From: Lunularia cruciata
Lineage: Eukaryota; Streptophyta; Marchantiopsida; Lunulariales; Lunulariaceae
Direction: 5' to 3'
Length of the DNA stretch: 64,000 nt
NCBI GenBank assembly: GCA_948567375.1
Contig: OX419761.1
Coordinates: 9,834,243-9,898,242 of the forward strand
The notes beneath the pieces were generated by a model. It was given only the letters and a program-made list of their open reading frames with translations. It ran no database searches and was not told the DNA's origin. Below, in pieces: positions 1,732 to 56,065 of the stretch. How positions within the stretch are numbered: position 1 is the first letter of the stretch; every line of letters begins with the position of its first letter. A program made the position numbers and the translations under genes.

Positions 1732-3546
1732 TATGGTACCTACATTTTTCATTTTGAACCAGTTTTAAAGAAGAAGTGCATTATTGAAACCAAATTGAAA
1801 CCAAATTGAAAAGAAATGATGAGAAGCATGTATTTTGATTTGACCTGAAGAAGTCTACTTTGTGTCAGAGGAAGAGGAAGAAGGAGGTCAGATGCCGCAG
1901 GAGGGTTTCTTTGCATCGGAATAAAGGTTGCAGGTCAGGATTGCTGCAGGGGCCATATCTCAATGAACACGTGTCCAAATCATACTTGCTACATTTTGTT
2001 GGAAGTGTCTCATTTAGGGCTTTCCATTACCACCAAAATTGTAAACTTTGGACGCATGTAGCAGATGTTACAAGCATTTGAAGTTTTGGGAGTAGATGTA
2101 TAGAGTAGTTGAGTGTCTTCGGGTTGGTGTCTTTGAGTCTATATAACTTCAGACTTTAGACTTCAAGTTTACACAACTTTGGGTCTAGACTTTTCCTCAA
2201 GATAAATATAATTCAACCCGAGGTAGTCAGACATTGGATGTAAGAGTCTTTAGGTCAGATATTTGAAGCATCTAAAATAGTTATGATCGGGAAAGAAGTT
2301 ACTTAGGATACCCATGACTTCAATTTCAATTCTGATTGAAGATATAATAGAATTAGAACAGAAATAGTAGTAGTGAATGAACCCAAAGTGCATGATCAGA
2401 TAGTAAGTGTCTTTGGGTCAATTACATGAGCAATTAGGGGAAAATGGGTTACAAATTTAAGCTATAGATAGCATACCTATGCTTTTAATTACAATTCTTG
2501 ATGAGGATATAGTAGAATTAGCAAAGGAATTGATAGTAATTAGACCTAAAGTTGTAGAAGTAGGAGTGCATGTGTCTTTGGAGTTGTCATCTGAGACATT
2601 AGAACAAGTGGGTCGGAAGATATAACGTTAAATAAGGACCTACTAGTGTAATTGTAGTTCAGAGTGAAGAAGACATAGAAATAGTGAAGGATTTGGTAGT
2701 TGAAGATAAACCAAAAGAATGAGCAGTAATAGGAAGATCATCAAGTTTGGAAGCCAAAGAAGAGGTTGACATTGGATTGGAGTAGTAACCGTTTTGAGAT
2801 TTGAAGAGGCAGATATGAAGAGGTGCATTATCATTTCAGATCTACAAGTAGAAAGAGTTGTTAGGAAATGGTATATTAGTTAGTAACTATCAAGTGCTCT
2901 GCCTATTAAGGGTGGCATTTGCAATATGTTGTTGTTCATTATTCATTATTTTTGAGAATAGATAAAGCAAAGTGCGGATTTCAGTACTCGTTGCTTGAGC
3001 TTGATTCCGAGTATCAACATTATGTGTTTGTGTTTGTGAGTGTGTGAAGAATCAGTATGCTTGTTGGATGTTGGATTCCATAACCTTGATCTTCATCTTG
3101 TGTGTTTGATCTTGAGTGAAGTGCAATCGGAGCAATGCCTTGACAGATCTCAGAGGAATTGTAATGTTGGTAGTATTCTACATTTGTGAATGCAACGCAA
3201 TGTTGATGTGAAGCAATTTCAATCAAGGAAGGTGTGCCTTTAGTGGAGGGGTGGAACATAATTTTGAGATAAAGTCGTTTTGCAATGAAGTGTCATTTTT
3301 GGGAGAATCTGAATCATCACAATCAAGATTGTTTGGAAAGATTTGATGAAGTTGTGATTATATATGACAAATTGTTGTAACAAGACTATGTATCAATGCT
3401 TGTTACTCTCTTCTGGGTGTAGTTGCTACCTAAGAGATTAAAGACAAAATCAAGGACTACATTGTGACATTTTTGACTAGTATCTTTGCAAGAACAAAAT
3501 TTACTTACCTGATTACCGCAAAAGTGATATTTTCTAGGTTGTCACA
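1732..3546 (+). repeat. Short-form solo LTR of family A, flanked by TSD AAGGC
   Basis: The left end TATGGTACC corresponds to TGTGGTACC with one G-to-A change. The right end GGTTGTCACA matches all family A LTR ends. A perfect 5-bp duplication, AAGGC, flanks it at 1727-1731 and 3547-3551, and the outer LTR reading frame resumes immediately after. At 1815 bp it is about half the long-form length. The conserved U3-ORF domain is absent and is replaced by a segment (about 1850-2110) that also occurs in the short LTRs at 7541-9412 and 10158-11592. The C-terminal end of the coiled-coil frame (about 2500-2790) and the LTR 3' portion (about 2860-3546) are kept. Confidence 0.9.
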
Positions 3547-3551
3547 AAGGC

Positions 3552-5904
3552 GGTGAAGGACAAGATTCAAAGATAGAGTCTGAACTGGAGATAGAATCCA
3601 AAAGAGGAGATTCCAAAGAAGCTAAACTCACTTTATAGAGTGAGGATTCCGGGAGTGAGAGTGAAGGTGAAGATGAAGTCCAACAATCAGTTGAGGCAAA
3701 AGAGGATGAGGCATTCTATGCAGCGATTGATCATATGGAGGGAGGAGACGGCCCTTGCTTGCCCATGGAGGAGATGGATGAAGAACCAAAGAAGGAAGAC
3801 TGGAAGGGAGGAAGAGCCAAGAGGTCAATGATAGTTGAACCTATAGGTCCAAGCTCAACCTATAAGGAAGAAGTAAGCTTGGAGGGAATGTCATTGAAGG
3901 TATGAAAATCAAGACTCTGGGAGAAGGCTTTGGTGGAAGAAGCATCAATAGCAACGGAGTACAAAGAAGGAGCCAAAGACAAAGAAGGCTTTAATGGGGT
4001 GAAGTATTTGTTGCATATTGTGAGTCCATTGTTAGAGCTATTGAAGAAGCAGAAGAAAGTGATCCAACAAGATCATGTGGAGGTGAAGAATGAGTTGCAA
4101 ATGGTGAAGTATTTGCTACATGAAGTAAAGGAATTGAAAGAGATTGTAACTCAAAGAGAAGAAGAAGCTAAGGAACTTTGAGTGGATCCAGCCTTGAAGA
4201 AGAACACTTTTGAGAACTTGCAAGAGAATTTCAAGAAGCATGGAAGAGAGATGCACAGTCAAGCCAAAGAGTTGAAAGAGAAGACAACATTATTGGTGAA
4301 GATGAAAGGTGAAGTCAACAAAGTTTGCATTGAAAGCATTCATGTGAAGGCGATGGTGGTTGTGATAGAGCAGGAGTTAGAGAGCTTGAAGAAGAGTGCA
4401 GCAAGGAAGGATCAAGCATGGTAGAGGGAGTTGGTGATCCGACACCAAGAGGAAGAAAGATTGAGAAGCTTGGCAAGAAGTGCTGAGGTGCAAAGTGCTT
4501 AGTATGTGGAGGAAAAGAAGATGCTTGTAGCCAAGTACAAAGACAAGTTGAAGATGTAAAGAGAAGAGTTGAAAGCATAATGATCTTGAGGGTATGTATC
4601 AAAGTTAGTAAGAGAAGTTGTTGGAAGACTATGAGCAATGCTTAGCATGGAATCTGAGGGAAAGTTGAAGGAAGTGAGACTGCATGAGTTGAAGTTGCTA
4701 GTGCAGGAAACAAGAAAGAGGAAAGCAAAAGATGTAGATATGAACACTCTATTGATTTGTTTAAGGTAATAAGTGGATAGGAAGATAATTGAAGTAGGAG
4801 AAAATGTAAGTCTTAGATTAGACTTAGTAAATTCAGAGTTAGAGAGACTTTGGAGTAGTATGAAGGAAGATAAGAAGTTTGAAGTTGTAGAAGTAGACGT
4901 AAAGGTGTCTTTGGATCAATAACCTAAGACATTAGAGAAGATTGGGTTGGAGGATAAAGATGTAGAAAGGTTACCTATGACCTCAATTGTAGTTTGTAGT
5001 GAAAAGATAGTAGAAATAGCAAAGGAATAAGTAGAATTAGATAGACCCAAAGAAGGAGAAGTGATAGGATAATCATCGGGTTTGGAAGCCAAAGAAGAAG
5101 TAGACATCGGATTGGAGTAGGAACAAAGTTGAGATTTATAGAGGAAAATATGAAGAGGTGGATTGTGATTTCAGATCTGCAAGTTTGTAGAGTTGTAGAA
5201 CTTTATTTTTGTTAGTAACTGTCAATTGCTCTACTATTTAAAGGAGGCATTTGTAGTCCTATGTTGTTCAGTATTGATAATTTCTGAAGATAGATAAAGT
5301 AAAGTGCTGAGTTCAGTGCTTGTCGCTTGAGCTTAATTTGAGTATTGATTTTGTGTGTGTGCTCGTGAGTGTGTGGAGAATTTTGAAGTGCAAGTTAGTG
5401 TGTTTGATAGATTCAGCAGCCTTGATCTTCATTTTATGTGTTTGATCTTGAGTGAAGTGCAATTGAAGCAATGCCTGAATAGATTTGAGAGGAATTGTAG
5501 TGTTGGTAGTATTTTGCAATTGTGAGTGCAGCGTTGAGTTGACCTGAAGCAATTTTGATCACGGAAGTTGTGCCTTCAATGGAAGGTTGGAACAAAATTT
5601 TGAGATGAAGGTGCTTTGCAGTGAAGTAGCCATCTTCAAAGAAATTTGAATCATCACAATTAAGATTTGTTTGGACAGAATTTGATGGAGTTGTGATAAA
5701 GGAGTGTTGAGTTATGATGAGACTGAGCGTCAGTGATTGTTACTCTCTTTCATGTGGTTTCTACCTGAGAGACTAAAGAAGAACTCAAGAAGAAGTACAT
5801 TGTTACTATTGGCTTTACATTTGACCAATTCTGACTCGTATCTCTGTGGGAACAAACTTTACTTACTTGATTACCACAAAAGCGCTATTTTCCAGGTTGT
5901 CAAA
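3552..5904 (+). repeat. Family A long LTR, outer copy, part 2, with coiled-coil end of U3 ORF
   Basis: The reading frame interrupted at 1731 resumes here with the acidic linker (about 3580-3900), then a lysine/glutamate-rich coiled coil (about 3930-5120). It has stops and ends near the GLEAKEEVDI-type C-terminus seen in other copies. A TATTTAAA box follows at 5235-5242 inside CTATTTAAAGGAGGCATTT, a block conserved among copies. The LTR ends at TTGTCAAA, against TTGTCACA elsewhere. No primer-binding site follows, so this is a 3' LTR or solo LTR rather than a 5' LTR. Confidence 0.82.
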
Positions 5905-7540
5905 TGGAAGAGAACCACCAATCAGAAAAATGCAATTGGCATTGCCAAAGAAACATTCCTACCCATGAGGCAACAAAGAAAGTCACTTTGAGTCAACACG
6001 ATGACTCTAAGCCAGAAAATGAGAAGCCAATGAATGTAGCCAAAACAAAGGAGGCCCTAAAAAATCAACTAAGACATGATAAGGACTCCTTTCCTTTGTT
6101 GATGTTAGCATGCATTCTCTACATGGTGATGCTTACAATGGAGGTTTTGGAGGAGATCCTATTGTTGTACTAGAAATTGGATCCAAAGATGACAGAACTA
6201 GCAGCTCTTGTGCACCAACTAGCTCAAGCCAAGGTGAACAAGAATGCCAAAGAGAGAGATTGGCAACTAGAGGAATTCTAAAGGGAGGATATAAAAGGAC
6301 ATGAGAAGTATGAGATGCTACTCTAGTACTTAAATAAAGAGGTTCATGATTACAATCAACAAATCTTCCAACAACAAAATCAACATAAAGATGAGATCCA
6401 AAACTAGGATGACAAACTCATGACCTTGCAAATCAAACTGGAAATGGCTCATGCTAACATGAATAAGTGGAGATGAGATATGATAATCTGAAGTAGTTGA
6501 CCAACCTTCATATCTCAAACTTATCCACAAACTTGAAATGGAAATAGGAGAGGAGAGCATAACAAGAGACAATAATCCATAAGGAAATGAAATATGAGCT
6601 TTGTAACAAATGAACCAACATGGAAAATGAACAAGTTGGGTTGCTCATGATTATTGGGCATATAATAATGCAACTACTCAGCCAATTGGAATGAATGGCC
6701 AATTGGACCTCCCAATATATGAAGGCAAAGGACTTGCAAACCCAAATTGATGCACTACACAAACAAGCATATCATGATGTTTTCTACCAAGCTGAAAGCC
6801 ACACCAATGCAAAATTTGAGGAGGTGCAAACCGGCTTTGTATAGGTTGTGGATGGATAGAAAAAGGAGCCCATAGAACTCATTCAAATATGCAAAGCAAT
6901 TGGAAGTTTGTCAAAAGCACCACCAGCTCCTCCCAACAAGGAATAACAAGTAGGGTATTATCTTTTGAAGGCAACAATAGTCATTTCTGTTCCCAGATGA
7001 TAGAATGCAATTTAGAACATGTAGTTGAGGTTTTGGTTTTTTGTACTTACGAGGTTTGTACTTTGTACTTAGTCAGTAAGAAGCAGCATAAAAGGTTAAT
7101 GTTAGCCAATTAGAGGTAAAATACAATTGGTTGAGGTTACTATAGTCCATAGGTACCTAACTTTTGGGTTAGGGATAATAGATAAGGTTTGATCAACACT
7201 AAGTGGCTTAGATATAACTGGGAAATTTACATCCCTTGTAGCCATTGGATCTTTTCACAACTATGTAGGAAGTGTATAAAAGACTTGGGCTTGATGATCA
7301 TTGGTTCGATCTGGTGCATCCTTCTTTTGCAATAATACAAAGTCTATACCATCATGACTCTTGATTTGGTGTATGTGTATTATTAGTCTACACTTGGTAT
7401 GAATGATGGCATTCTTAGCTGAGTAGGAGTGAAGAATCTTGAGGTACAAACCAAAGCACTAGAATGCATGGTAGTATTTGTATGGAACTAGATAAACAAC
7501 TCTAGGAGCTCAACCAAGGTCATGAACAATACAAGAATAG
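5905..7540 (+). mobile_element. Unassigned decayed retroelement with coiled-coil frame and LTR-like tail
   Basis: A broken plus-strand frame (about 5905-6990) encodes lysine/glutamine-rich helices, for example HQLAQAKVNKNAKERDWQLE near 6215, and ends near a proline-rich APPAPPN. From about 7060 to 7445 the sequence looks like an LTR: it has a TATAAAAG box near 7276 followed by AATAATAC, typical of promoter and poly(A) regions. I see no RT, integrase or confident boundaries. The right side is interrupted at 7540 by a family A LTR and appears to continue at 9413, because the duplicated AATAG lies on both sides. It could be a gag remnant of a Gypsy element or a non-autonomous element; I cannot decide. 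Confidence 0.4.
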
Positions 7541-16700: not shown

Positions 16701-16894
16701 GTATTTTGCCTTGCATATCCTTCTTGGCTGGCATCATTGTAGCTGATGCATACTCTTCATGTGAAATCTCCACCAAACTAGCCTTGAAAAGGTCACTAAT
16801 CTGGCTCTGAATGAATGCTCTCTCCATGTCACTATATTGATAGGCACGTAGGAAAATTGGTATATTACTAGTCAGCTCAATCTTGCTTGAACAT
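13751..16894 (-). pseudogene. Family B Ty3/Gypsy pol remnant: RT, RNase H, integrase
   Basis: Minus-strand order is RT (about 16890-15690), RNase H (about 15683-15345) and integrase (about 15060-14400). RT matches the plus-strand family B copy at about 63080-63950. Its catalytic block reads YINDILVY (about 16330-16365), so the first catalytic aspartate has become asparagine by a single transition. RNase H shows LTQWALILQDYDF and VVNYDVDELSRNP. Integrase shows SYRYSWKASLASFSPYFLLY and GQDPDLPI near 14500. Frames are broken throughout. At 16894/16895 the sequence switches abruptly into a family A LTR, and about 750 bp that lie just upstream of RT in the plus-strand copy are missing from both sides of the family A insertion. 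Confidence 0.78.
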
Positions 16895-17873
16895 TGCCAT
16901 GATTGCTCCCACAATGCTTGGCTTAATGGGATCCCAATAAGACTCTACTTTGTAGCCATTGTTGGTTTGCAGGGCAAAGAATGAATTCCTAATTTCTACA
17001 ATGTCTTCTGCATCATCACACTTCATATAAAAAGTGACCCCGGCTGCATCTCTTGCTTCCTTCCCTCGTATTAACTTCCAATTTGACTCAGTCCATGAAG
17101 TTGGATTTCCTCTCTTCCCATTACTTTGGGGGATTTCTTACAATTACTTGCAACTATCTTTGCCATGCAACCTAGAAAACTAACATTACAATTCCAGGCC
17201 AGAAAGATCATACAAAGTCTGTTTATGACTTTGATTCTAGCTATGATGTCTAATTGCCAATTGCAAAACTCCTCACTGCAAGTGCATTCTTACTCTTCTT
17301 CACCATGATTCGCTCACAAGTTCTTTAACATTGGAAGATTATCCCCTCTTCTGGATGCAACACTCTAACTCCTTCTGGTCTTTTAAAAATTTCACTCTCA
17401 ATTTACCTCTTGATGTGCATTACTGTAGGATGACTACTCAAAAGGATAGGGTATCTACTTGACATGTTTGATTTCCTTGTGTGCAATCATAATTTTATAG
17501 TACTTTGGGGTGCAGTCATTCTCCAATCAATTTTAAAATCAACCACCACTTCTTCTACGTGTTGGTTTCCTGTCACTTTCAAAGTATTCCTCTCTTGCCT
17601 CTACTGTTTCTTTAAGTGTACTTTCTTGGCTGGCATGACACGTAGAAAGGTTGTTACATCTTCTTTGCATTGGCTTTCACTTTCTATTTCAAATATGCCC
17701 TTCTTTGGGTTTGTCTCCTTCTAAGCCCCATCCGACTTCCAATTCCTGGTCCAAAGTCAACTTCTTTGGGTTTACTCAAAAGACACGTAAGTTCATCTTT
17801 TCTTTGTGATTTGGCTTCCTCAACAGACTTCTTCTTCAAAAATCATCAAAACAAAAAGAATGTGGGTACTACA
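16895..17873 (-). repeat. Family A 3' LTR, truncated (first 979 bp)
   Basis: On the minus strand it starts TGTAGTACCCACATT at 17873, directly after the integrase frame and a purine tract. It covers the N-terminal third of the U3 reading frame and stops at 16895 in the conserved domain (around NGYKVE and the following DPI-type segment), where family B RT begins. The remaining roughly 2.8 kb, including promoter, R and U5, are deleted. Confidence 0.85.
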
Positions 17874-17888
17874 TACTTCCTTCCTCAA
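17874..17888 (-). promoter_or_regulatory. Polypurine tract of family A
   Basis: Minus-strand TTGAGGAAGGAAGTA lies immediately upstream of the LTR start TGTAGTACCC. It overlaps the last codons of integrase (LTFEEGSM). Its position defines the 5' boundary of the 3' LTR and hence the long-LTR interpretation. Confidence 0.82.
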
Positions 17889-19150
17889 ATGTGAGCATCC
17901 CCGCAAACACCGACAGTAACTTCTTTATACAATGTTGGTTCCATGGTCCAATATTTTGAACCCTCTACTTACTTACTTGGGTTGCAAATGGATTGCCTTC
18001 CAGGTCTACAAGATGAATAGATCCATTATCATAGATGTGCAGCACTTAGTATCGCTCCATCCACCTTGGATGCAGCTTGCCTGGAAAAAATATTTGGCAA
18101 TTGTCATACAACAACAATTAAATTGCCCTCCTGAACAGTAAGGGCATTGATTTGCTTATCATGCCTGACCTTCCATTGTTATTGAACCTCCTTTTTGATT
18201 TGCATTGCATCATCTCTTTTCTCTTCTAACCACATCAGTTGATGGATCTAAAGATCTTGGCTTTCTTCTTTTCACAATAGTTCTTCAAGAAGAATCCAAT
18301 ATGTTGGTACTCCGAATTCAATTGGTAGGATTGGATGCAATTTGTATGTCAAGAACTAAGGCATATTTTTAATGGTAATCTTTTTAACTCTTCTATATGC
18401 CCACAAAATGGTAGGGAACTTTGTGTCCCAATTGTAGACATAATTGATCGTCACCTTATTCAAAATTTGCATAACAATCCATTGGACTTCTCTGTTAGTT
18501 CATTTGCTTTTGGATTATAAGGAATCATCTTCCAATGTTTTATCTGGAGGTACTTGGTTAATGTTTCCACCATGGAGTTAAAAAAATGAGTCCCCCAATC
18601 ATTGACCAACTCTAGAAGACATCTGGAATGTGAAGGATGTTTGGAAAACAAATTTGGTGACTATTTCTACATCATCTCTCTGAATTGCCTCGACTTCAAC
18701 CATCTTGGTAGCATAATTAGTGCACACCAAGATGTATATCTTCCTTATGAATTGGGTCATCCATTGAATCAGACACACAATATCAATGCCCCATTCTCAA
18801 ATGGAGCCAATGGAAAAATTGGTCTCAAAGGCCACTAGGAAGTAGCAGTTGGCTTTCTTGTGCACTAGCAAGCATCACAACTTTGTATATAGGCGTGAGT
18901 ATCCTTGTACATCATAGGCTACCAAGATTTAAAAAGAAAGAAGAAAGAATCTTCTTTACAATACTTTTTAGGGCATAGTGTCCTCCCAATACTTCTGAAT
19001 GCAAGGACTTGATTTCTCCTCCAATTTTGTATCCCTCTAAGCATCTCCAAGGTACTTCATCTTTGCCCATCTTAAATAAAATGTTATTTTTTAGCTAGTA
19101 TGGTCCTATCTTCCTGAGGAAGACTGCACTCTACTCCGGTTCCAATCCCT
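17889..19150 (-). pseudogene. Family A integrase
   Basis: The minus-strand frame carries an N-terminal zinc-region remnant (LHSEVLGGHYALKSIV near 18960), a decayed catalytic core (about 18700-18350, for example WALLTMGGLIF-like and the IPYNPKANELTEKSNG block near 18500) and a C-terminal segment GSIHLVDLEGNPFATQ at about 17975-18025. The last residues FAGMLTFEEGSM (17909-17874) run over the polypurine tract and one codon past the LTR start, where a TAG stands in place of the TGG found in other LTR copies. Many stops make it non-functional. Order and motifs fit a Tat-type Gypsy integrase without a chromodomain. Confidence 0.78.
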
Positions 19151-20560
19151 CAAGACAATGGCAAGTATGCAGATCATGATATTTTGCCGACCTTGTACTT
19201 CACATTGCCATTAAATGGTATAACTCTTTATCAGGAAATTGATCATCTACTTCCAAGTCTTGGTCTTGAGTTTCCAACCTAGATAGGAAGTCTGCATTTG
19301 AATGCAAAGCTCCATTCCTTACTTGTATAGTGTATTTGAACTCTTGAAACAACAAGATCCATCTTACAATTTGCCCAAACAAATCCGCCTTCTTAACCAA
19401 ATGTTGTAGAGCACAATGGTCCACATAGAAGACAAACTTGTATCCCAACAAATAATGATGAACTTCTTGCAGGCGTACACCATTCCAAGTGCTTCTCTTT
19501 TAGTGGTTGAATAGTTTTTTTCTGAAATTCAAAGTTATTGGTTGGCATAATAAATCAAGTAATCCTTCTTCTTCTTGTCCTTCTAACTTAAGACCACTCC
19601 AATTGCCATGGACAAAGTGTCCACATACACATGGAAAGGGGCATCCCAATTTGGAGCCTGCATAAATGGTGCTTCAACCATTTTCTTCTTCATTTCTTTG
19701 AAAGCTTTTTCTTGTTCTGCTTCCCACAAGTAGTCTTTGGACTTCTTTCATAAGCTTTGTTAATGGTGTAGCAAGCACCATGTAGTTTGATACAAAGCAT
19801 TGTAGTATCCGACATGTCCCAAGAAGGCCCTCAACTCCTGAATATTTTTAGTGGATTACAAAGTTGAGATGACTTTCACCTTCTCAACATCAACTTCAAT
19901 ACCTTGGCTTGATACACCCAATGCCCTAGAAGAATTCTTTCCTTCATTGCAAAGAAGCATTTCTCCAAGTGTAATGACAAGCTGGCAAAATGACCCTTTC
20001 AAAAGTTTGGTGAAGGGAAACCAAATGTACTTCTCTTTGCCTAAACACACAAAAATCATCAATGAAGACTTTTACAAATTTTCATAGAAAATCTTTTAAG
20101 ATTACATTCATCATTTGCTAGAAAGTAGCGGGAGCATTACATAACCCAAAAGGCAGTTGATTGTAAGCAAAAGTGCCCTAATTGATAGTGAATGTGGTTT
20201 TTTCCTTATCCTCTTCTTGGATGTATTCTTGATTATAGCCTAAAAATACATCAAGAAAACTATAATAGGGATGACCAGCTACTTGGTCCAAAATTGTATC
20301 AGTGAAGGGCAAGAGATGATGATCCTTCCTTGTGACTGCATTCAACTTGCAAAAATCTTGGCACACTTGAATCTTCCCAGTCTTCTTCTTTGGAACAATG
20401 AAAATGGGGATGACCCATTCACTGCTCAAGATGGGAAAGATTATCCCGGCCCTTAATTTCATCTTTCACCTAAAGTGAGTACTTTGGGTTCAAGTGGTAC
20501 TGTCTTTGCCAAACTGGAATTGCATTTTCAACTAGATCAATCCAATGTTCCCCAAATTGG
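19151..20560 (-). pseudogene. Family A reverse transcriptase and RNase H
   Basis: RT begins near 20460 with LSSEWVIPIFIVPKKKTGK and VCQDFCKLNAVTRKDHHLLP. It continues with SFLDVFLGYNQ (about 20265-20230), YNQLPFGLCNAPATF (about 20165-20120) and the catalytic FIDDFCVF (about 20043-20072). RNase H is visible as KFVFYVDHCALQHLVKKADL (about 19440-19380) and ends with HSNADFLSRLE (about 19262-19300). These blocks are characteristic of plant Tat/Athila-type elements. Stops and small frame changes, for example just after 20178, make it a pseudogene. Confidence 0.84.
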
Positions 20561-21520
20561 CATGGAATACCCAGCATTTGATCAATAGACCAAGCAAATA
20601 CATCCTAATACTCTATAAATATGGCAATGTATCCTGCCAACTCCTCCAAAGTGATTGTCTTTGGAATCTTTAAAGTTTTTCTTTGGACAATACATTATCT
20701 TGACTGTCATTGGGGTTGATGACTCCTTCAACATGACTGACTTTGCTTAACTTGAGTTGAACTGCAGTCAAACCTCCTTCCTCCAAATTGGTTTCACCAG
20801 AGGCAATGTTGTATGGGTTTTTGTCTTTGACCTCTACCTCGTAGCACTCCAAGTAATTGACTTGGAGTGCAAGTTATCTTTGGAGTCACTTGAAGACAAA
20901 GACAATGAATTTTTGGATTCATCTTCATCTTTTGACAAAGTTGTTTCCCCAAGGTGGGGAACCTTTGTCCTACTCACAGTCACCAACTTTTGGTCTTCAG
21001 ATGAGATGCCCTTGAACCTCAACTTCTACTAGTGCTAATTTATAATAACTTAGGAAAGTACAACCAAGGTTTGCCAATCAACAACATATAACCAATTTTG
21101 GTTACTAGTTGTAACACAATGTAATTTAACTTGAAGGGCACTCCTCTAATGATCATAGTAATTTTTTATAGAATGCCCAAAGGCCGTCTCTTGGTTTGAT
21201 CCGCAAACTTCAGAATTTGGGGTGTTGGCTCACACGTAGTATACCCTAACTGATGTGTAGTGTCTTTTGTCATGACGTTCACACCCAACCTCAAATCAAT
21301 GGGTATAGATGTGATCATGGAGCTTGTGATCTCCATGTCCACTTCAAGAGATCCCAAACCTTCTTGTTCAATATGATAAATTGTTAGCAAGTCCTTCTTG
21401 GTCATCGCACTTACTTTCTTGAGGGCTACATCTAGCTGCTTCTTGTACATCTTGTTGTCCTCCCACAATTGCTTAAATGTGACATTTGCATTTGTGGATG
21501 CCAAATCTGCCACAATATCA
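20561..21520 (-). pseudogene. Family A aspartic protease and linker to RT
   Basis: The protease region at about 21310-21060 (minus) reads PIDLRLGVNVM, then LGYTTCEPTPQILKFADQ and RRPLGIL, and later a LLIGKPWL block. This is the Tat-type pattern in which a DxxSGVNVM-like active site is followed by LGxxxxEPxPxxLxxADQ and LLGRPWL. The nucleophilic aspartate is kept but the serine/glycine context is altered. The linker from about 21000 to 20561 is acidic (EDESKNSLSLSSSDSKDN) and has no recognisable domain. Confidence 0.72.
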
Positions 21521-23995
21521 TATTGGGGTACTTCCCCCCAACTTCACCTTCTTCACCTTTGTCTTTGGGTTTGGAGTCTCTCCTTGTTCAAATTGGACTT
21601 TGGGGTGCTTCAAAATGGTGACCAAAGTACCAATGGTCTTATCTTGAGGTTCTTTGGGTTTACCTACCTTGGCTTGCATCAAATTCTTTACTTTGGATTT
21701 GATGTCCACCAAAAAGACGGGAGGCTTTGTCTTTGTATCCTCCTCCACACTCGTTCTCGAGTTCATTATAATGCTTCTTTGATTTCTTTTTGCAAAGCTT
21801 TAGCTTTAGCTTTTGCTAGAATCTTTTCCTCCTTTGCAAAAAGAATAGTGTTTGGCCTCAATCTCTTTGCTTTTCATAAAGATGAAGAAGTAGTACTTGC
21901 TTCTTTGGGATCACGCTTCTTCTTACTCACACGTGTCTCAACCTTCAAAATTTCTAGGTCTGGTCATTTGCCTTTGGAAGACGGACTACATTCTTGAGAT
22001 CTCTCTTCCTCAAGTGTTAGACAATTTACATCTGTATCTCCTTTTGCCTATAGCGCATCTTGCTCAGCTAGGGTTTGCACATACTTCACCGGTGGCTTTG
22101 GGTTAGGAGGTTGCAAGCACTAATTTCCAATGTGGCCCAATCCCTTACAATTTCCTTAGAGTGGAACATATACAACTTGATGCCTCAGCTTAGGGCAATT
22201 CAGAGACCAATGGCCCATAGAGCCACAATTACAATAGACACCCAATGCAACATTTTGAGGCCTATTTTGGCCGCCCATTGGTGGTCTTTGTAGAAGAGCA
22301 TTATTGTTATACTCCCTTGGTCCATATCTTAGACCTTGATATGATGTGCTTGGTTGAGATTGTACCTCTTGGGTTTGGTACACTATCTCTTCTTCCTCAC
22401 TTTGGTCCCAACTTGGAACCCAATCAATTTGTTGCACTGGAAATGCATTACGGGTGAGACACTCCATGTTGGCATGACCTTACTTGCCACACGTAGTGCA
22501 CCATACATTTGGTCTGCCAAATAAAGGAGGCTTTCTTTGGTCCTTTGCCCTAATCATCTGGATCTTGAAATCTGTGAGCTCTTTTATAAGAGTCTCCAAC
22601 TTATTATCAGTCTTATTTACACTTTGTTTGGGGTATCAATGGCTTCTTTCCTCCTCATCTTTGTATTCTACTTTGCTTTAAATCTTTTCTGGATTCCAAA
22701 GAAGAACTTGAAGATGTGGAGGATTCCTCCAAAGAAGGAGATTTACTACAAGAAGCTCTTCATTTGGGCTTCTTGCCTTTCTTCTCCCAATTTCTTTGGT
22801 TTTTGGAAGAATGAGAGTAGGCCGCCTCATACCAAGCAACATGTTTGAGGACTTTGTCTAGGGAATTTAAGTTCCCCTCCTTGGCAAAGATATGAATCTC
22901 TGGTGACAATCTTCCAAGGAATCAGGTAATAGCTTGGGCATCGTAGTGACCTACCACATCAGATTGCTTTGGATCTTGGTTCAATAAGGCCATGAACCGC
23001 TTAGAGTAGTCTCTCAACTTCTCTTTCTTCCCTCTATCCAAATCATTGAGTGCCAAAAAGACACTCATGTTGTAATTGACTTCCTGGAATCATTCCAAGA
23101 AGCTATGTCTAAAGTCTGCCTACTTGGCTGGGCTGAACCATTTCTGGGTTACATGCATATACCAGCTCCAAGCTTTCTTTCAGAGCAGACTTGGGAAAAT
23201 GCACAACTGGTCAGTAGATTCATGCTCCTTATTGGCAAAGGAGATGACAAAGGAGATGAATTTTTTGATGAATTCATCAAGATCTTTATCTTGTTCCATC
23301 CTCTTGTACTTCTGGTAGGCATGTTGGGTTATGTGTCATTTTAAGACTCTAGAAGACAAGTTGCGGTAATGTGGGGCTTGATGGACCCAAGGTACTATGT
23401 GATCATTGTGCATTGAGTTCAACCCAAGGGTTCACCAAGTTCAAGATGGAGTCTTCATTCACAGATGGTTCTTCAGCTGGTACGTCGACTTCAACCCAAG
23501 TCAAAGACAAAGGTTCAATATCTTAAGTTGCCTCTTTGAGTTTCCTCTGAACAAGTTGAGGAAACATATGAAGAAGATATTGACACTCTTCTTCTGTTAG
23601 AATTTGTGCTATCTTTTCAAGTATGAATTCTTTGATGAAACTGGCTCCCTTGGTAGCTTTTGAGGAAGTCGGTTTACTGGGTCATAGCAAATCTTTTTGT
23701 CCAATTGTGTCTTTCTTCTTCTTGGGATTCAGAGATGCAAAGTAGCCTCACCACGCAATCTCTTGTTTCTACTACTCAAGGTCTTTCAAGGCTTCTTAAA
23801 CTTTGTGAAGAAGTTGCAAATTCAATGCCTCCTCCACTTTTGTCAAAGGTGATATGGCGCTTTTGGTGTTATTCTTCTTCATGATGCACATTTATTTATG
23901 AGCTCTCTCTTCTTGTTGTTCTCTTGATGCCAACATTTATATTGGTTGAATGCCTAATTTCAAATTTGGCTTTGTATTCTTCCATTTCCAAAATT
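21521..23995 (-). pseudogene. Family A gag with zinc knuckles
   Basis: A capsid-like retrotransposon gag segment is readable at about 23330-22850: DEFIKKF, then WYMHVTQKWFSPAKWADF, EEFQEVNYNMSVF-like, LRDYSKRFMALLNQDP. A first zinc knuckle, CTTCGKxGHANMEC, lies at 22459-22500 with a TAA where glutamine is expected. A second, CNCGSMGHWSLNC (about 22190-22250), has only one residue between its first two cysteines. A third weak one, NCKGLGHIGNxC, follows at about 22110-22150. Downstream (about 22000-21520) comes a lysine-rich, KPPVF-containing linker before the protease. The order PBS, gag, protease supports a real 5' LTR at 24025. Confidence 0.75.
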
Positions 23996-23999
23996 TGTA

Positions 24000-24017
24000 T
24001 CCCTAGCAGCGGTGCCA
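24000..24017 (-). promoter_or_regulatory. Primer-binding site of family A, tRNA-Asp type
   Basis: Minus-strand TGGCACCGCTGCTAGGGA starts 7 nt after the LTR end TTGTCACA. It matches the complement of the plant tRNA-Asp 3' end (TGGCGCCGTTGCCGGGGA, from general knowledge) at 14 of 18 positions. All four differences are transitions. A tRNA-Asp primer is common in Tat/Athila-type plant elements. Confidence 0.82.
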
Positions 24018-24024
24018 AAAATCA

Positions 24025-25541
24025 TGTGACAATCCAACAAGTATCACTTTTGCGGTAATCATGTAAATAAAGTTCATTCCCACAAAGATATGGGCTAGAA
24101 ATGGTCAATTACAAAGCAAATAGTAACAATTTAGTTCTTCTTGAGTTTGTCTTTAGTCTCTTAGGTAGAAACCACACCCTGAAGAGAGTAACAAGCACTT
24201 ACTTGCAGTCTTGTCACAAATTTCACACTCATAATCAAAATATTACCTAATCTTTCTAAACCAACTTTGTTTGTGATGATTCAAATTCTTCCAAAGATAG
24301 CTACTTCATTGCAAAACTACTTCTCTTCAGAATTGTGTTCCACCCCTCCACTAAAGGCATAACTTCCTTGACCAAAATTGCTTCACATCAAACTCACGCT
24401 ACAGTCACAAATGCAGAATGCTACCAACACTACACTCTCTCAGATATGACAAGGCATTGTTTCAATTGCACCTCACTCATTATCAAACACATAGAATGAA
24501 GATCAGCACTATGGAATCCGACATCCAACAAGCACACTGACTTGCACTTCAAATTTTTCCACACACTCAAAAATACACACACAAACTTGATACTCGGAAT
24601 TAAGCTCAAGCAACAAGCACTAAAAATCAGCACTTTGCTTTCTCTATCTTCAAAACTTTAGAATACTAAACAACATAACATTGCAAATGCTTCCTTCAAA
24701 TAGGCAGAGCATTGTGACACTTAACCAACAACTATACCATCCTACAACAACTCTTTGAACCTATAGATCCAAAATGACAATGCACTTCTTCATATCTGCC
24801 TCTTCAAATCTCAAATCTATTTCTACTCCAATCCAATGTCTACTTCAACTTCAGCTTCCAAACCCAACGATCCTCCTCTTACTTCTCCTTCTTCAGGTCT
24901 ATCTTCTCTACTACATCCTCCACTATTTCTATTACTTCATCATCTTGAACTACAATTTCACTAACGTGTCACCTATCTACTTCTTTATCTCCCGATCCAA
25001 TCTTCTCTAATGTCTCGGATAGCTGATCCAAAGACACCTGCAATCCTACTTTTGAAACTTTGAACTTCTTATCTTCTTTCACACTACTCCAAAGTCTCTC
25101 TAGCTCTGAATTTACTAAGTCTAATATGAGACATACATGTCTCCTACCTCAATCATCTTCCTATCTACTCGTTCCCTCAAGCAAATCAAAGATAGTTTTA
25201 TCCACATCTTTCACTCTTTTCTTTCAAGTTTCTTGCACAAGCAACTTCAATTCATGGAGTCTTGCTTCCTCCAACTTCCTTTCAGATCCCGTGCTCATCA
25301 TTGCTTGCATTCTCCCAACCACTTCTCCTACCAACTCCAACGTATACCCTTGAGATCTTTTTGTCTTCAATTCTTCTCTATACATCTTTAACTCATCTTC
25401 ATACTCAGTTGCCAACATCCACTTCTCATCTTCATATTGAACACTTTGCTTCTCAACACTTCTGACCAGACTTCTCAACCTTCCTTCCTCCTGGTGTCGG
25501 ACTACTAACTCCCTCTACCATGCTTGATCCTTCTCTGCTGC
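24025..25541 (-). repeat. Family A 5' LTR, 3' portion (coiled-coil end of U3 ORF, promoter, R-U5)
   Basis: On the minus strand the U3 frame resumes at 25541 after a nested insertion. It encodes the end of the coiled coil (SVEKQSVQYEDEKWMLATEY and VGEVVGRMQAMMSTGSERKL, about 25440-25250), then less well preserved C-terminal sequence to about 24790. The promoter block follows, and the LTR ends TTGTCACA at 24025. The other part of this LTR is at 29956-32229. The two parts join without loss across the insertion: the other copies have the same sequence uninterrupted (around GCTGCACTCTTC on the plus strand). Confidence 0.88.
24695..24702 (-). promoter_or_regulatory. TATA-like box of the family A 5' LTR
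   Basis: Minus-strand TATTTGAA is the decayed version of the TATTTAAA seen at the same place in other copies (5235-5242, 29254-29261). It lies about 670 bp from the LTR 3' end and downstream of the U3 reading frame, so transcription from here would exclude the U3 ORF of this LTR. No experimental start site is known. Confidence 0.5.
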
Positions 25542-25542
25542 T

Positions 25543-28500
25543 GTGGTACCCACTTTTTTTTCTTCTGTTTTGTTAGAGTTTTAAAGAAGAAGTTAGTAAG
25601 AAAGCCAAATTACAAAGGAAAGAATGCTTGGGTGTGTCTTCAAAGTAAACTCAAAGAAGTTGACTTTGGGGCGGAAAGTGGAAGTACTCAGAAGGGGGTA
25701 CAAAGAGACAAGTCCAAAGAAGATCATCTTTGGACCAAGAAGTAGACCGATACAAAGACAATGTAACAAACTTTCTTTGTGGCAAGAAAGTACACTTCAA
25801 GAAACGGCGGAGGCAGGAGAAGCATGCCTTGACAGTGATAGGAAATCAAAACACAAAAGATGGTAGGAGTTGATTTTGAAATTGACTGAATAATGACTGC
25901 ACTTTGGAGTAATATAAAGTTGCAATTGCGTAGAGGGAAATCAAATATGCCAAGTAGATATCCTATTCTTTTGAGTAGTTGACTTGCAGTAATGCATGTC
26001 AAGAAGCCGATCAAGAGTGAAATTTTCAAAAGTACAAAAGGGGTTAGAGTGTCACATCTAGGAGAGGGAATATTTTTCTAGTGCCGAAGAACAAGAGAGC
26101 AAATCATGGTAAAGAAGGTCAAGAATGCACTTGCAATAAGGAGCTTTGCAATTTGGAGGTTAGATATTGTAGCAAGGATCAAAGTCTTGAATAGACTTTG
26201 TATTACATTTTTAGCTTGGAACTGGAATTTCAATTTCCCAAGAGTCATGGCAAAGATAGCTGCCAGTAATTGTGAGGAATGCCCTTAAGTCAAGGGGAAG
26301 AGAGGAAATCCGGCTTGATGGATTGAGTCAAATTGGAAGTTAATATTGGGGAAGGAAGCAAGAGAGGCAATTGGGATCACCTTCTATTGGAAGTGTGATG
26401 CTGCACAGGAGATTGCAGAAATTTGCAATTTGTTCTTTGCTCCGCATATGACTAATGGCTACAAGGTGGAGTCCTATTGGGACCCAATTACATGAAGCAT
26501 CATAGGAGCAATAATGGCTATGTTTAAACCTGAACAAATGACATACGTGAACATGCAACAGGTTGTCTTCTTCTACTAGATGTTTGCAAGCGTGAAGGTG
26601 AATTGGGCAAAGTGCTTCCACCAGCAAACAAGGCAAATGGTCATCAATTGGAGAACTAATTTGCCTCCACATTATTTTGCACCATTGACAACACACTTCT
26701 ACTTCAGGTTGAATTTGTTGATGGCGGAGGAGAGGCGATGCATGGTGTCACATTTCCATCCTGATCTATGACAAGAAGTGGATGAAGAAGAGCATCACTA
26801 CATGTCACACCTACAAGCCAGTGATGATCACTTCATCAGAACAAGACAGCGAGTGATGGAAGAAGTAAGAAGTCGAAAGACAAAGAAGCAGACTAAAACC
26901 AAAGAGGAAGAGTTGCCTCAAGCATAGTAGAAGAACCTAAGACTCACTATGCAAGGTAAGAAGGCTATGAGAGAGGAGACTTCAAAACCGAGTCTAAAAG
27001 TGAGACAAATTCTAGAGGAGGAGACTCATAAGAAGAGAAGCTCACATTACAAAGTGGGGAATCCAAAAGTGAGAGTGAGGGTGAAGAAGAAGTTCAGCAA
27101 TTAGCTGAAGAGGAACAAGATGAAGACTTTCATGCGGCAATTGATTGTATGGAGGGAAGTGATAATCCCTGTATAGCCTGGGTCATGGAAGAAATGGATC
27201 CCGAGCAAAAGAAGGAAGACCATGTAGGCCCAAGTTCATCTGGTAAGGAAGAAGGAAGCTCAAATGCAATATTGCTGAAAGTACAAAGATCAAGACTTTG
27301 GGAGAAGGAGCCGGTAGAAGAGATGAAGTATGAAGACGTGGCCTGTAACACCCATTTGTGCATGTGTGTGGTATTGTGATATTTAGCTTGGTAATACAAG
27401 TACTTGAGAGATAATATTTATATAGAGATAAAGGATGGTTCTACATTAGTCATGATTAGCTAGAGTAAGTCATAACTAAGATAGAAGGGACCTTACTTTA
27501 GAGGAGGTGGAAAAGATGAGCACCACTATTTTGGATTCTAGTGTGTTGACTTGGTATTATTCCTAGGTGTTTAGCTTTGAGGAGGATTCTTCTCTAGTCC
27601 AAGGATAGCCCATGTGAAGGAATCCTTGACTTAGTGGTTGGGTCAAGATAAGATCACATGCTAGTGGAATATGCCCATGTGAATGGATATTCCTTTATAC
27701 TTTTTGACTTTACTTGACTTTTAGTCTAGTAACTTGAGTTACTACGGTAATTAGTAACTTTGGTGTGTAACTATTTCACAAGTATATAAACAAGGGGTGA
27801 GGAGGTATTCATCATCCTTTCATTTGCAACTATCTCTCTCTCATAAAGTTCTCAAGTGAGCAATGTCTTGAGTCTTGGAGTGTTAGCCTTGGAGGAGTAT
27901 GATGGAGTTGGAGTTCCTTGCCTTCTTAGTCCATGGTGCGCTACCATAATAGCCGTCAGAGGTTCATCTTGAGTGAAAGACAGGCCGGCTCACAGGCCAA
28001 AGACAAAGAGAACTTGGGAGGAGTACAATATTTAATGTAGGTTGTAACACCATTGTTAGAGCTGTTGAAGGTGCAACAGAAGGTAATCCCACAAGATCAA
28101 AAGAAGGTGAAGAATGAGTTGGAGATGGTGAAGTATCTACCAGAAGAAGTGAAGGGATTGCAGGAACATGTAGCTCAAAGAATAGAAGAAGTTTAAGAGC
28201 TTTGGGTGGATATAGTCTTGAAGAAGAAGACTTTAAAAAAGTTGCAAGAGAGTTTTGAGTCAAGGGGAAGAGAAATGCAGCGTCAAGCTGAAGAATTGAA
28301 GGCGCAGGCAATGTTGCCGATAAAGATGAAGGAGGAAGTCAGTGAAGCACGCATAAAAAGTATTCATGTGAAGGTGATGGCAGCAGTGATGGATCAAGAG
28401 TTAGAAGGCTTGAAGAAGAGTGCAACAGGGAAAGATCAAGCATGGCAGAGAGAATTGTCAATCCGACATCAAGAAGAAATATTGAGAGAATTGGTAAGAA

Positions 28501-29137
28501 GTACGGAGATACAGAGTTTTCAGTGTATGGAGGAGAAGAAGATGCTTGCTACTAAGTACAAAGATGAGTTGAAGATGTACCGGGAAGAGTTGAGGGCAGA
28601 GCAATCTTGGGGGTATGCATCAGAATCAATAGGAGAAGTTGTTGGAAGATTGTGAGCAATGTTGAGCACGGAGGTTGAAGGAAGATTGGGAGAAGTGAGA
28701 TACACAAATTGAAGTTGCTTGTGATGGAAACTTGGAAGAGAAGAGCAAAGGATGTAGATATGAACACTCTTCTGATTCGTTTAAGGGAGAGAGTAGATAG
28801 GAAGATGTTAGAAGTAGGAGACAATGTAAGTCTCAAATTAGATTTAGTGAATTTGGAGTTAGAGAGAATTAGGAGTAGTGTGAAGGAGAGGAAGAAGTCT
28901 GAAGTTACAAAAGTAGGAGTGCAGGTGTCTTTGGACTTGCCATCTGAGGCATTAGAGAAGAGTGGGTTGGGAGGAAAAGAGTTAGATAGATTACCCTATA
29001 GTGTAATTGTAGTTCAAAGTGAAGTAGTAGAAAAAGTGAAGGATTTGGTAGTTGAAGATAGACCCAAAGAAGGAGGAGTAATAGGAAGATCATCGGGTTT
29101 GGAAGTCAGAGAAGAAGTTGACATCAGATTGGAATAG
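25543..29137 (+). pseudogene. U3-encoded ORF of the nested solo LTR
   Basis: Plus-strand frame in the order seen in all long copies. A basic N-terminal part comes first (about 25560-25870). The conserved domain (about 26106-26770) begins MVKKVKNALAIRSFAIWRLD, includes the block NWNFNFPRVMAKIAA, then YVNMQQVVFF, WAKCFHQQTRQMVINWRTN and HYFAPLTTHFYF, and ends MVSHFHPDL. An acidic linker (about 26780-27343) and a coiled coil (about 27999-29137) follow, with segments such as MNTLLIRLRERVDRKMLEVG and a C-terminus SSGLEVREEVDIRLE. The frame is interrupted by stops, shifts near 25870-26100, and an unrelated solo LTR. No known enzymatic motif is visible and I do not know the function. Confidence 0.75.
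27344..27994 (+). repeat. Solo LTR of a fourth LTR family, innermost nested layer
   Basis: 651 bp starting TGTAACACCC and ending GGCTCACA, flanked by GGCC (27340-27343 and 27995-27998). It interrupts the U3 frame of the surrounding LTR. A TATATAAA box at 27783-27790 and a following pyrimidine-rich stretch suggest promoter and R region in plus orientation. Only 4 bp of duplication are clear. The family cannot be named without internal sequence. Confidence 0.75.
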
Positions 29138-29955
29138 TAAGAATTGTGAGATTTGAAGAGGCAGATATGAAGAGTGCATTGTCATTTTGAATCTGCAAGT
29201 AGGAAGAGTTGTTGTAGAACCATATTGTTGTTAGTAACTATCAAGTGCTTCACTATTTAAAGGAGGCATTTGCAATTTGTTGTTGTTCAATATCCATAAT
29301 TTCTAAAGATAGATAAAGTGAAATGTTGATTTCAGTGCTTGTCGCTTGAGCTTAATTCCAAATATCAACATTGCATGTGTGTTTGTGAGTGTTTAGAGAA
29401 TTTTGAAGTGCAACACAATGTGTTTTCAATTTTTCAAGGTTTGTTGGATGTTAGATTCCGCAACCTTGATCTTCATTTTATGTGTTTGATCTTGAGTTAA
29501 GTGCAATCAAAGCAATGCCTTGACATATCTAAGAAGAATTGTAGTGTTGGTAGTATTCTGCATTTATGACTGTAGTGCAATGTTGATGTGAAGCAATTTT
29601 GATCAAGGAAGTTGTGCTTTCAGTGGAGGAGTGGAACACAATTTTGAGGCAAGGTCATTTTGCAGTGAAGTGCTATCTTTGGGAGAATTCAAATCATCAA
29701 AATCAAGATTTGTTTGGACAGAATTTGTTATGTTGTGATTAGGAGTGTGTGAATTAGTGGCAAGTTGGCAAGATTGAGTGCTTGTTACTCTCTTCTGGGT
29801 GTTCTTTCTACCTGAGAGATTAAAGATGCAACCAAGAAGAACTAAGATTGTTACTTTGCTTTGTATTTGACCAATTCTGACTAGTATCTCCACAAGAACA
29901 AACTTTACTTACTTGATTACCGCAAAAGTGATATTTGTCAAGTTGTCACAACTAC

Positions 29956-32229
29956 ACTCTTCTTCAAGCTCTTTAACTCCTTCTGCATCACAGCCGCCAT
30001 TGCCTTTGCATGTATGTTTTCAATATGAGCCTTGCTTACCTCTCCTTTCATCTTCTCAATCAATGCTTTCTACTCTTTCAACTCTTTGGCTTGCCCGTTC
30101 ATCTCTCTACCATGCTGCTCAAAACTCTCTTGCAACTTCTCTATAGTCTTCTTCCTTAATACTATCTCCCTCTGAAGCTCTCAGCTTCTTCTTCCCTTAG
30201 GGTTACCATCTCCTTCAATTCTACTATTTTGTCAATCAAATATTTCATCACTTGCAACTCATTCTTCACCTCGGGATGATCTTTCTGAATCTCCTTCTTT
30301 TGCCTATTCAACAATGCAAACACCGGACTTACAATCTATGACAAGTATTCCACCCCATCAAAGCTTCTTGCTTCTTTTTCTTGGTCTTTGTATTTCATCC
30401 CCATCAATGCTTCTTCTGCCAAAGTCCTACTCCGACACCTTGATCTTTGTACTTTCAATGACCTTCTTTCCGAGCTTACTTCTTCTTTATTCACCCGGCT
30501 CGGACCTGCAGGTTCAGTTGGCAGTATCCTCTTCAATCTTACCTCCTTCTGGACATCTTTCTTTGGTTCTTTGTCCATCTACTCCATGGGTAACTCTAAG
30601 CACATGCCATCTCCTCCCTCCATACAATCCATTGCGGCATGAAACTCCCCATTGCCTTCTGCCCCAATTGACTATTGGACTTCTTCTTCCCCCTCACTCT
30701 CACTACCCAACTCCTCACTCTATAATGTGAGTTCAGCTTCTTTGGTTTCCCCTCTCTTTGACTTTGTCTCTGCCTTAGACTTTGTCTCTAAAGTCTTGTC
30801 TTTCACCACCTCCTTGCTTTTCAGGTTGAGTCTTTGTGCCTTTTGTGGTGGCTAGGGTAAGGCTATTCCTTTAAATTTAGTATGCTTCTTTGTCTTTGGA
30901 CTTCTTCCTTCCACCATCTTCCACTGTCCTGTCTTGATGAAGTGATTATCACTGAACCACACTTGGAGCATGTATCTTTGCTCCTCCTCATCTGTTTCTC
31001 ACCAAAGATCAAGATGAAAATGTGAGACCATGCAATTATTCTCTTCCAATGTCAGCAGATTTAATCCCAAGTAGAAATGCATTGCAAATGGTGCAAAGTA
31101 GTATAGCGGCAAATTGGTCCTCCAATTGACAACCATTTGCCTTGTTCTCCAATGAAAGCACTTGGCCCAGTTCACCTTCTCTTCTGCAAACATCTAGTGG
31201 AAGAAGACCACCTATTGCATGTTCACATACTTTGTTTGCTCTCGCTTAAACATTGCCATGTTGCTCCCACAATGCTTTGCACAATGGGGTCCCAATAGGA
31301 CTCTACTTTGTAATCATTGTTGGTTTGCGGGACCAAGAATAAATTCCTAATTTCTAGAGTTTCTTCTGCAGTGTCACACTTCCTATAAAAAATGACCTTA
31401 GCTGCATCTCTTGCTTTTTTCCCCACTACTAACTTCCAATCCAACTCAGTCCATCAAGCCAGATTTCCTCTCTTCCCTATTACTTTGGGGCCTTCTTCAC
31501 AATTACTTGCAATTATCTCTGCCATGCAACCTGGAAAACTAACATCCTAGTTCTAGGCCAGAAAGGTGATATGAAGTTTGTTCGAGACTTTGATTCTAGC
31601 TATGACATCTAATTGCCAAATTGCAAAACTCCTCATTGCAATGGCATTCTTACTCTTCTTTGCCATGATTTGCTCACAAGTTCTTCACCATTGGAAGTTT
31701 ATCCTCTCTCCTAGATGTGGCACTCTAACCCCTTGAAGTCTTTGAAAAATTTCACTCTCAATTGACTTCTTGATGTGCATTATTGTAGGATGACTACCAG
31801 AGAAATAGGGTATCTACTTGACATGTTTGATTTCCCCTTATGCAATTGTAATTTTATAGTACTTCAAGGTGCATTCATTCTTTAGTCAATTTTGAAATTG
31901 ACCTCTACTTCTTTTGCGTGTTTTTTTCCTATTACTTTCAAAGTATTCCTCTCTTGCTTCCACCATTTCTTTAAGTGTACTTTCTTGGCTAGCCTGACTG
32001 CAAAAAGGTTGTTAGATCTTCTTCATATTGGCCTTTGCTTTTGTTTTGAAGATTCTCTTCCTTGGGTTGTGTCTTTGCAAGCCCCATCCAAATACTTCCA
32101 ATTCTTGACCCAAAGTCAACTTCTTTGGGTTTACTCTGAAGACTCATAAGTTCATCCTTTTCTTTGTAATTTGGCTTCCTCAACACACTTCTTCATCAAA
32201 ACTCACCCAAAAAAAATGTGGATACCATA
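29956..32229 (-). repeat. Family A 5' LTR, 5' portion (N-terminal two thirds of U3 ORF)
   Basis: Minus-strand start TATGGTATCCACATT (TG changed to TA) at 32229. The U3 frame then runs through LLRKPNYKEKDELMSLQSKP (about 32190-32130), the conserved domain (about 31650-31000, for example FAEEKVNWAKCFHWRTRQMV and FHLDLW), an acidic linker (about 30950-30600) and the first coiled-coil part (about 30580-29956, KDVQKEVRLKRILP and later KKTIEKLQESFEQ). It stops at the ACTAC target-site copy. Flanking sequence at 32230 and above is family B. Confidence 0.87.
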
Positions 32230-36477: not shown

Positions 36478-36478
36478 T

Positions 36479-53118: not shown

Positions 53119-53119
53119 T

Positions 53120-55947: not shown

Positions 55948-56065
55948 GTATCAATTTTGAGATAGAAAGAGGCTGATATGAAGATATGGATTGTCAGTCT
56001 GGATCTGCAGGTAGGAAGAGATGTTAGGAAGCGGTGCATTAGTAAGGAATTGCCATTTGCTTCAA

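Follow-up and report, generated by a model that had tools for sequence, protein, structure and literature searches.

A 64,000-nucleotide stretch of the Lunularia cruciata genome (C11:9834243-9898242; hereafter the window) consists of stacked, nested old repeats, in which one long terminal repeat (LTR) unit recurs often, mostly at 67-83% identity in a self-comparison. Two nested Ty3/gypsy LTRs occupy positions 24025-32229 of this window, where a minus-strand outer LTR (32229-29951 plus 25541-24025) is interrupted by a plus-strand inner one. Both contain the remains of a long reading frame situated in the unique 3' region (U3) of the LTR, and here we describe this frame as a putative 865-codon gene that was maintained by purifying selection. 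As the original prediction had stated, the outer LTR is ~3.8 kb long (3.73 kb in the well-sampled subfamily) and the frame is present in several long copies within the window; tblastn recovers it at 1211-5111, 26082-29125, 31684-24906 (minus strand), 57030-51234 (minus strand) and 53663-55944, together with a short piece at 17256-16880 (minus strand). The coordinates of the features are collected in Table 1.

The outer LTR terminates in TTGTCACA at 24025 and is followed by TGATTTT and then by the primer binding site (PBS) TGGCACCGCTGCTAGGGAT at 24017-23999, while its partner 3' LTR begins at 17873, directly following GAGGAAGGAAGTA. These positions bear out the original proposal that a PBS of the tRNA-Asp type abuts the 3' end of the LTR at 24017 and that a polypurine tract (PPT) located after integrase abuts its 5' end. 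No tRNA was found in the window, and the tRNA-Asp assignment rests on likeness to described Diaspora and Calypso sites. The two LTRs of the outer element are 83% identical across 995 aligned bases, and the element is therefore old. Within the inner LTR, the stretch at ~27338-27998 is unmatched by the U3 frame, and the 5-mers that flank this LTR (GCTGC and ACTAC) agree at just three of five bases.

Table 1. LTR copies, U3-frame remains and associated sites in the window
Feature	Positions	Strand	Remarks
Outer LTR, 5' part: U3 start, N-terminal and middle parts of the U3 frame	29951..32229	-	frame remains 30174-31684
Outer LTR, 3' part: C-terminal frame remains, then repeat (R) and unique 5' (U5) regions	24025..25541	-	frame remains 25541 to 24906
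Inner LTR, TGTGGTACCC...TTGTCACA, nested in outer LTR	25542..29950	+	frame remains 26082-29125
TATTTAA box of inner LTR, downstream of the U3-frame end	29254..29260	+	
PBS TGGCACCGCTGCTAGGGAT, tRNA-Asp type, 7 nt past the LTR end	23999..24017	-	likeness to Calypso/Diaspora (PMC1142308)
PPT GAGGAAGGAAG, immediately before the 3' LTR of the outer element	17876..17886	-	
Internal region of outer element	17887..23998	-	L031, the internal region of another copy, matches the whole length at 76% nucleotide identity
3' LTR partner of outer element, start only	16881..17873	-	match stops at 16881
Solo LTR of the well-sampled subfamily, flanks CATTT/CATTC	53119..56745	+	frame remains 53663-55944; ~106 bp missing inside the frame
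Older LTR copy, 3' part, split by the solo LTR at 53119-56745	50430..53118	-	frame remains 51234-53104
Piece of the same older copy (50430-53118): part of the conserved domain, stop-free	56746..57030	-	
Further LTR copy, split by the LTR piece 1734-3546	1211..5906	+	frame at 1211-1711 and 3579-5111

The frame-bearing unit is an LTR

In order to define the ends of the repeat, we searched the genome (566 Mb, 74 contigs) at the DNA level with 53119-56745 and scored 36 copies, query included, among 14428 first-look candidates. Over the first 2.2 kb of the LTR, these best 36 of 14428 are 86-100% identical to the query. Ends were read for 33 of them, leaving out L008 and L016, whose 3' parts are broken, and the copy at C6:34761740. 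Neither a PBS nor a PPT adjoins the unit in 24 of the 33 copies. Matching flanks mark 22 of these as solo LTRs (all five bases agree in 14, four of the five in 8), where chance would produce at least four matching bases in ~1.6% of pairs if base frequencies were equal; the remaining two are L019, with flanks agreeing at 3/5 bases, and L028, which is without its 5' end. A PPT alone precedes the start in three copies, a PBS alone follows the end in five, and one copy (C7:5789964) has both, giving totals of six for the PBS and four for the PPT. An additional solo LTR, L068, has CACAT on either side.

Solo LTRs start with TGTGGT, or the variants TATGGT and TGTAGT, and end in TTGTCACA or close variants; a minority of LTR copies begin with TA or end in CACA variants. 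The solo flanks together with the adjoining PBS and PPT thus place the ends of the repeat at TGTGGT and TTGTCACA (or close variants). None of the 33 copies starts at an internal point, such as had been named as the competing LTR start. Thus, the unit is an LTR, ~3.73 kb long in the well-sampled subfamily, and two further predictions hold, namely that the frame-bearing segment belongs to the LTR and that the unit also stands alone between 5-bp target-site duplications, its flanks matching at four or five positions.

The unit also lies on both sides of gag-pol at C7:5789964-5803569 (L027-L031-L024), where the two copies share 91.5% identity over 3779 aligned bases, ~50 of which are the end of the internal region. 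In this tandem, ~50 bp of internal-region end with the PPT precede the first LTR and a PBS stands after, an arrangement expected from recombination between LTRs. At a different locus, an open 321-codon reverse transcriptase frame (L002:366-1328; RVT_1, E 7e-30) ends ~170 bp before a solo LTR, which may be an insertion into another element.

A separate reading frame occupies most of U3

We aligned 30 LTR copies with a mean pairwise identity of 0.886. Near-fixed stops bound the frame, at column 349 in all 30 copies and at column 2950 in 28 of 29, and an ATG is found at column 355 in 29/30. From ATG to stop, the frame comprises 865 codons in this best-resolved subfamily, so that the large U3 frame of the original prediction stands and its length of ~900 codons is corrected. 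In the other two forward frames, 64 of 1034 and 89 of 1033 codons are stops in the majority of copies. Every one of the 30 copies has 3-13 stops between the ATG and the end of the frame and 0-7 frame-breaking indels up to column 3100; L068 and L069 are likewise decayed, with longest open stretches of 504 and 459 codons, respectively.

A TATA-like motif is present at column 3073 in 29 of the 30 copies (TATTTAA in 28 and TATATAA in 1; the last copy has TATCTAA), and of six pieces in the window, four have TATTTAA at a distance of ~680-700 bp from the end of the LTR. The stop of the frame precedes this box by ~120 bp, and hence the gene, which is located in the LTR upstream of the TATA-like box, lies wholly in U3. 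U3 is roughly 3.1 kb long, with a leader of ~350 bp before the ATG, and the gene forms a separate, sense-oriented open reading frame (ORF) fully inside it that is present in both LTRs.

Columns 85-349 of the leader are, in subfamily A, open in the frame of the U3 gene save for low-frequency stops, and the leader ends at the stop kept in 30/30 copies (TGA in 23, TAA in 7), six bases before the ATG. A second protein encoded in these columns was considered and set aside: counts of nonsynonymous and synonymous changes gave no decision, and stops interrupt 5/5 of the subfamily B copies shown.

The internal region identifies the element. L031, with LTRs on both sides, contains zf-CCHC, RVT_1, RT_RNaseH(_2), Integrase_H2C2 and rve in this order (read in three pieces); its gag matches are weak and below the Pfam cut-off. 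A Pfam scan of 16 open pieces from one decayed element found neither a chromodomain nor an archaeal-type second RNase H. The order of the domains, LTRs with TG/CA ends, the short target-site duplication, and a PBS and a PPT at the inner LTR ends are those of Ty3/gypsy. Judged by these features, the element is a Ty3/gypsy retrotransposon without a visible chromodomain, and its pol motifs suggest that it may lie near Athila. The last pol frame of L031 is shifted by one base relative to the U3 frame and ends ~50 bp short of the LTR; there is consequently no room for a 3' gene outside the LTR. We also rejected the U3 gene as a continuation of pol, considering this frame mismatch, the pol stop, and the column-349 stop that precedes the U3 ATG in every aligned copy.

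The U3 frame evolved under purifying selection

Rates of nonsynonymous (dN) and synonymous (dS) change were counted after skipping codons with a stop in either sequence. Between L069 and L068, dN of 0.135 and dS of 1.08 across 459 codons gave a dN/dS of 0.13, with 63/53/182 differences at the three codon positions. L069 was paired with nine copies, one of which offered too few codons; the other eight pairs gave 0.09-0.13, and eight pairs with L068 gave 0.17-0.26. When compared with the outer element of the window, the U3 frame of L024 gave 0.19 (482 codons, two of its three pieces overlapping by ~70 bases) and pol of L031 gave 0.24 (932 codons). In this one matched comparison, the predicted gene was about as constrained as pol. 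The U3 frame yielded 0.18, 0.20 and 0.26 in the remaining window comparisons, with one saturated, and five comparisons of its C-terminal half yielded 0.19-0.30. Synonymous divergence was lower in pol (0.74; 17874-24017 vs L031) than in the U3 gene (1.87; 29951-32229 vs L024), as if LTR and internal region differed in history, by recombination, or in rates.

Within the subfamily, the mean pairwise dN/dS was 0.39, compared with 0.57 and 0.63 in the shifted frames, and changes common to at least four copies had a lower ratio of nonsynonymous to synonymous changes than singletons. For transversions, this ratio was 26:20 among shared changes and 371:84 among singletons, with a selection-free expectation of 5.96:1; shared transversions in the shifted frames numbered 39:2 and 35:3. 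Neutral evolution of the frame, which the original prediction had posed as the outcome that would count against it, does not hold between diverged copies (overall dN/dS 0.09-0.30); the original condition named the youngest copies, and within the subfamily only the transversion test is clean. Together, these substitution patterns show that the putative U3 gene was held by purifying selection while the family multiplied.

A second subfamily provided additional evidence. An open piece of 172 residues next to the L030 LTR, used as the query of a protein search, returned 15722 candidates, of which 150 matches were scored. In nine of 12 fetched loci, the LTR start motif precedes the match by ~420-460 bp (three showed no motif), and in L079 it directly follows the PPT. 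Compared with the first subfamily, amino-acid identity was 51-56% and dN ~0.34-0.36, while of six comparisons five left dS undefined and one gave 2.7 (that is, synonymous sites are near or past saturation). Three comparisons inside the second subfamily gave dN/dS of 0.26-0.40. A stop lies shortly before the expected start in four of the five copies shown. The second subfamily thus likewise bears the gene within its LTR.

Features of the predicted protein

The predicted protein consists of an N-terminal region, a conserved domain of ~230 residues (spanning about residues 80-345 in the L068 piece), an acidic linker, and a long, charged, coiled-coil-like part in which a crude count indicates heptad-like hydrophobic spacing. 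Structure models suggest, with low confidence, that the conserved domain is mainly helical. The Pfam search that had been proposed for the conserved domain was run and found no family above cut-off, including Transposase_32, plant mobile domain, Transposase_28 and Athila ORF-1; NCBIfam gave nothing near its cut-offs, and PDB sequence searches, run to E 1 for a single sequence and to E 10 for a profile, gave no match. We had suspected Transposase_32 and dropped it for want of a Pfam match; a genome search for it was also empty, with its controls silent too, so that this search does not show absence. The strongest sub-threshold matches in Pfam and NCBIfam, Mal_decarbox_Al (E 0.0019; 17 bits, cut-off 25.4) and TIGR01110 (E 0.016), were taken as composition effects of the coiled-coil-like part. 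No clear membrane span was seen in three open pieces from three copies by Kyte-Doolittle 19-residue averaging (maximum 1.18-1.77), no dedicated predictor having been run. Going by this make-up, our guess is that the protein most likely serves the element in an accessory role, structural or nuclear, and not as an enzyme or an envelope protein.

Comparison with known retroelements

The closest cases known to us are the sag gene of the mouse mammary tumour virus (MMTV) and the centromeric chromoviruses of CRM group A. The sag gene, whose product is shorter than that of the 865-codon U3 gene, offers a parallel and not a kinship. As described for MMTV, Sag is encoded by a separate gene in U3, present for this reason in both LTRs, and is served by a second promoter (PMC9412291). 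MMTV is a betaretrovirus of animals and the element described here a plant Ty3/gypsy retrotransposon; the two are likened without sequence comparison, and the L. cruciata LTR offers no evidence of a P2-like promoter. In CRM group A, the polyproteins extend into the 3' LTR (PMC3059260). In those chromoviruses it is only the tail of pol that lies in the LTR, whereas the element studied here shows no chromodomain and carries behind the pol stop, in another frame, a separate gene that fills most of U3.

Among other plant Ty3/gypsy elements, Calypso and Diaspora have a PBS complementary to tRNA-Asp a few bases after the LTR (PMC1142308), which the PBS of the present element resembles in sequence and spacing, and Diaspora has been described as envelope-less. 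Athila has a third ORF after gag and pol (PMC2410132). In Athila-type elements, however, this additional ORF belongs to the internal region and stands between pol and the 3' LTR, whereas here only ~50 bp separate the end of pol from the LTR and the gene is part of U3; the membrane-span feature of the env-like ORF of Athila was not found in the U3 protein pieces. Retand, Grande and RIRE2 likewise carry a large extra ORF whose function is described as unknown (PMC7264820, PMC11963269), but these ORFs are antisense and lie between pol and the 3' LTR, and the U3 protein has no Transposase_28 match. Plant LTRs of ~3 kb or more combined with an extra ORF are known from Retrosat2, RIRE3 and RIRE8 (PMC3485330).

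One review places the additional ORFs that it describes in plant elements between the LTRs (PMC7264820). A survey reports extra ORFs of at least 250 codons in 3372 Ty3/gypsy elements and LTRs of up to ~5 kb, and its accessible part makes no statement on ORFs inside LTRs (PMC6317226). Our own literature search, mainly of open-licence papers, found among the matches listed no separate plant protein gene wholly within an LTR. An LTR-encoded separate protein is therefore likely, though not proven, to be new for plants.

Other features of the window

A second repeat family occupies 32230-39674 and 57033-62332 in inverted copies of 68-77% identity (32230-34311/62332-60230, 37105-38847/59995-58239 and 38896-39674/57886-57033). 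On the minus strand, 41338-42408 contains a 356-codon open frame that may be an exon or what is left of a gene; it matches the FkbM methyltransferase domain below threshold (E 6.5e-4) and is overlapped by a 167-codon plus-strand frame.

Expression, origin and alternative explanations

Lying upstream of the LTR promoter, the gene cannot be transcribed from that promoter within the same LTR. We propose that it is expressed from the 3' LTR copy, where it comes last in the genomic RNA (R-U5-gag-pol-U3 gene-R), probably via a spliced message that skips gag-pol, and that in the 5' LTR and in solo LTRs, where it is upstream of its own promoter, it would normally be silent. A T-rich tract ending in AG at LTR column 36, found in 27/30 copies, is a possible splice acceptor. 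As to its origin, most likely a PPT right after pol became the plus-strand primer, and a gene formerly located between pol and the LTR, the position in which Athila-type elements carry their env-like ORF, would then have been copied as part of U3 into both LTRs. We consider it fairly probable that this account holds as a whole, from a U3 gene under purifying selection and expressed from the 3' LTR to its origin by a PPT shift and an accessory role.

Several observations weigh against this account. No intact frame was found in the 30 aligned copies or in L068 and L069, and current activity is thus unsupported. The commonest internal stops are at columns 886 (12/30), 2419 (10/30), 778 and 541 (9 each), so that 12 of 30 copies share one. 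Transitions do not differ between shared and singleton changes within the subfamily (p = 0.78), and the pooled test of shared against singleton changes drops in the shifted frames as well, only the transversion test being clean. The start codon is less certain for the second subfamily, where an ATG follows the stop in only two of the five copies shown. Two AlphaFold2 models, mostly helix, were poor (mean predicted local distance difference test scores of 37.5 and 41.7) and unusable for a fold search. No splice donor could be established in the last 114 LTR bases plus ~1.1 kb of internal region, which contained one weak candidate, and we found no relative with the gene outside its LTR, of the kind that would document a PPT shift. 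Finally, we infer the transcription, splicing, translation and function of the U3 gene from sequence alone.

A possible, if doubtful, alternative is that a promoter of its own, within the initial 350 bp of the LTR, drives the gene, in which case every LTR, solo copies included, could make the protein. The leader before the ATG would offer space for it, solo LTRs make up 22 of the 33 copies, and in MMTV the U3-internal promoter P2 serves the U3 gene for Sag (PMC9412291). However, no TATA motif turned up in a simple scan of one copy's leader, and stops in the frame are equally many in 19 solo (4-12) and 7 attached copies (3-13). Much less probable is persistence of the frame through selection on a derived host gene, or on some host use, and not on the element. 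Such genes would be hard to spot among 23749 first-look candidates, 126 of which were scored, but constraint between several subfamilies of individually decayed copies is the pattern of selection in a replicating lineage.

We give almost no credence to an internal gene of the usual kind, situated between pol and a 3' LTR whose boundaries were drawn too wide, which would agree with the placement of the Athila-type extra ORF (PMC2410132, PMC7264820); the flanks of the frame-containing solo units rule it out, with the PBS and PPT abutting those same ends and the unit standing on either side of gag-pol at C7:5789964-5803569. A chance opening in a non-coding LTR, for which just the decay of all copies examined would speak, is equally negligible given the stop pattern, the codon-position differences and dN/dS between L069 and L068, conservation in the second subfamily with amino acids kept where synonymous sites are near or past saturation, and the pol-like constraint in the matched comparison.

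An extension of our proposal, which we put forward tentatively and think rather unlikely, is that an accessory gene, by becoming part of the LTR, gained two copies per insertion and one copy per solo LTR without gag-pol, would be homogenised whenever reverse transcription takes place, and may have a product that solo LTRs supply in trans. The protein would then represent a new family, kept about as strictly as pol where synonymous sites are saturated.

Implications

LTRs normally hold only control signals, and those of plants are usually treated as regulatory DNA. The conserved 865-codon U3 gene would mean that LTR size can be coding size, in a plant case comparable to MMTV sag, and relocation of the PPT would provide a testable route for the incorporation of an extra gene into an LTR. 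In this family, the solo LTRs that are commonly regarded as dead scars would scatter copies of the gene across the genome.

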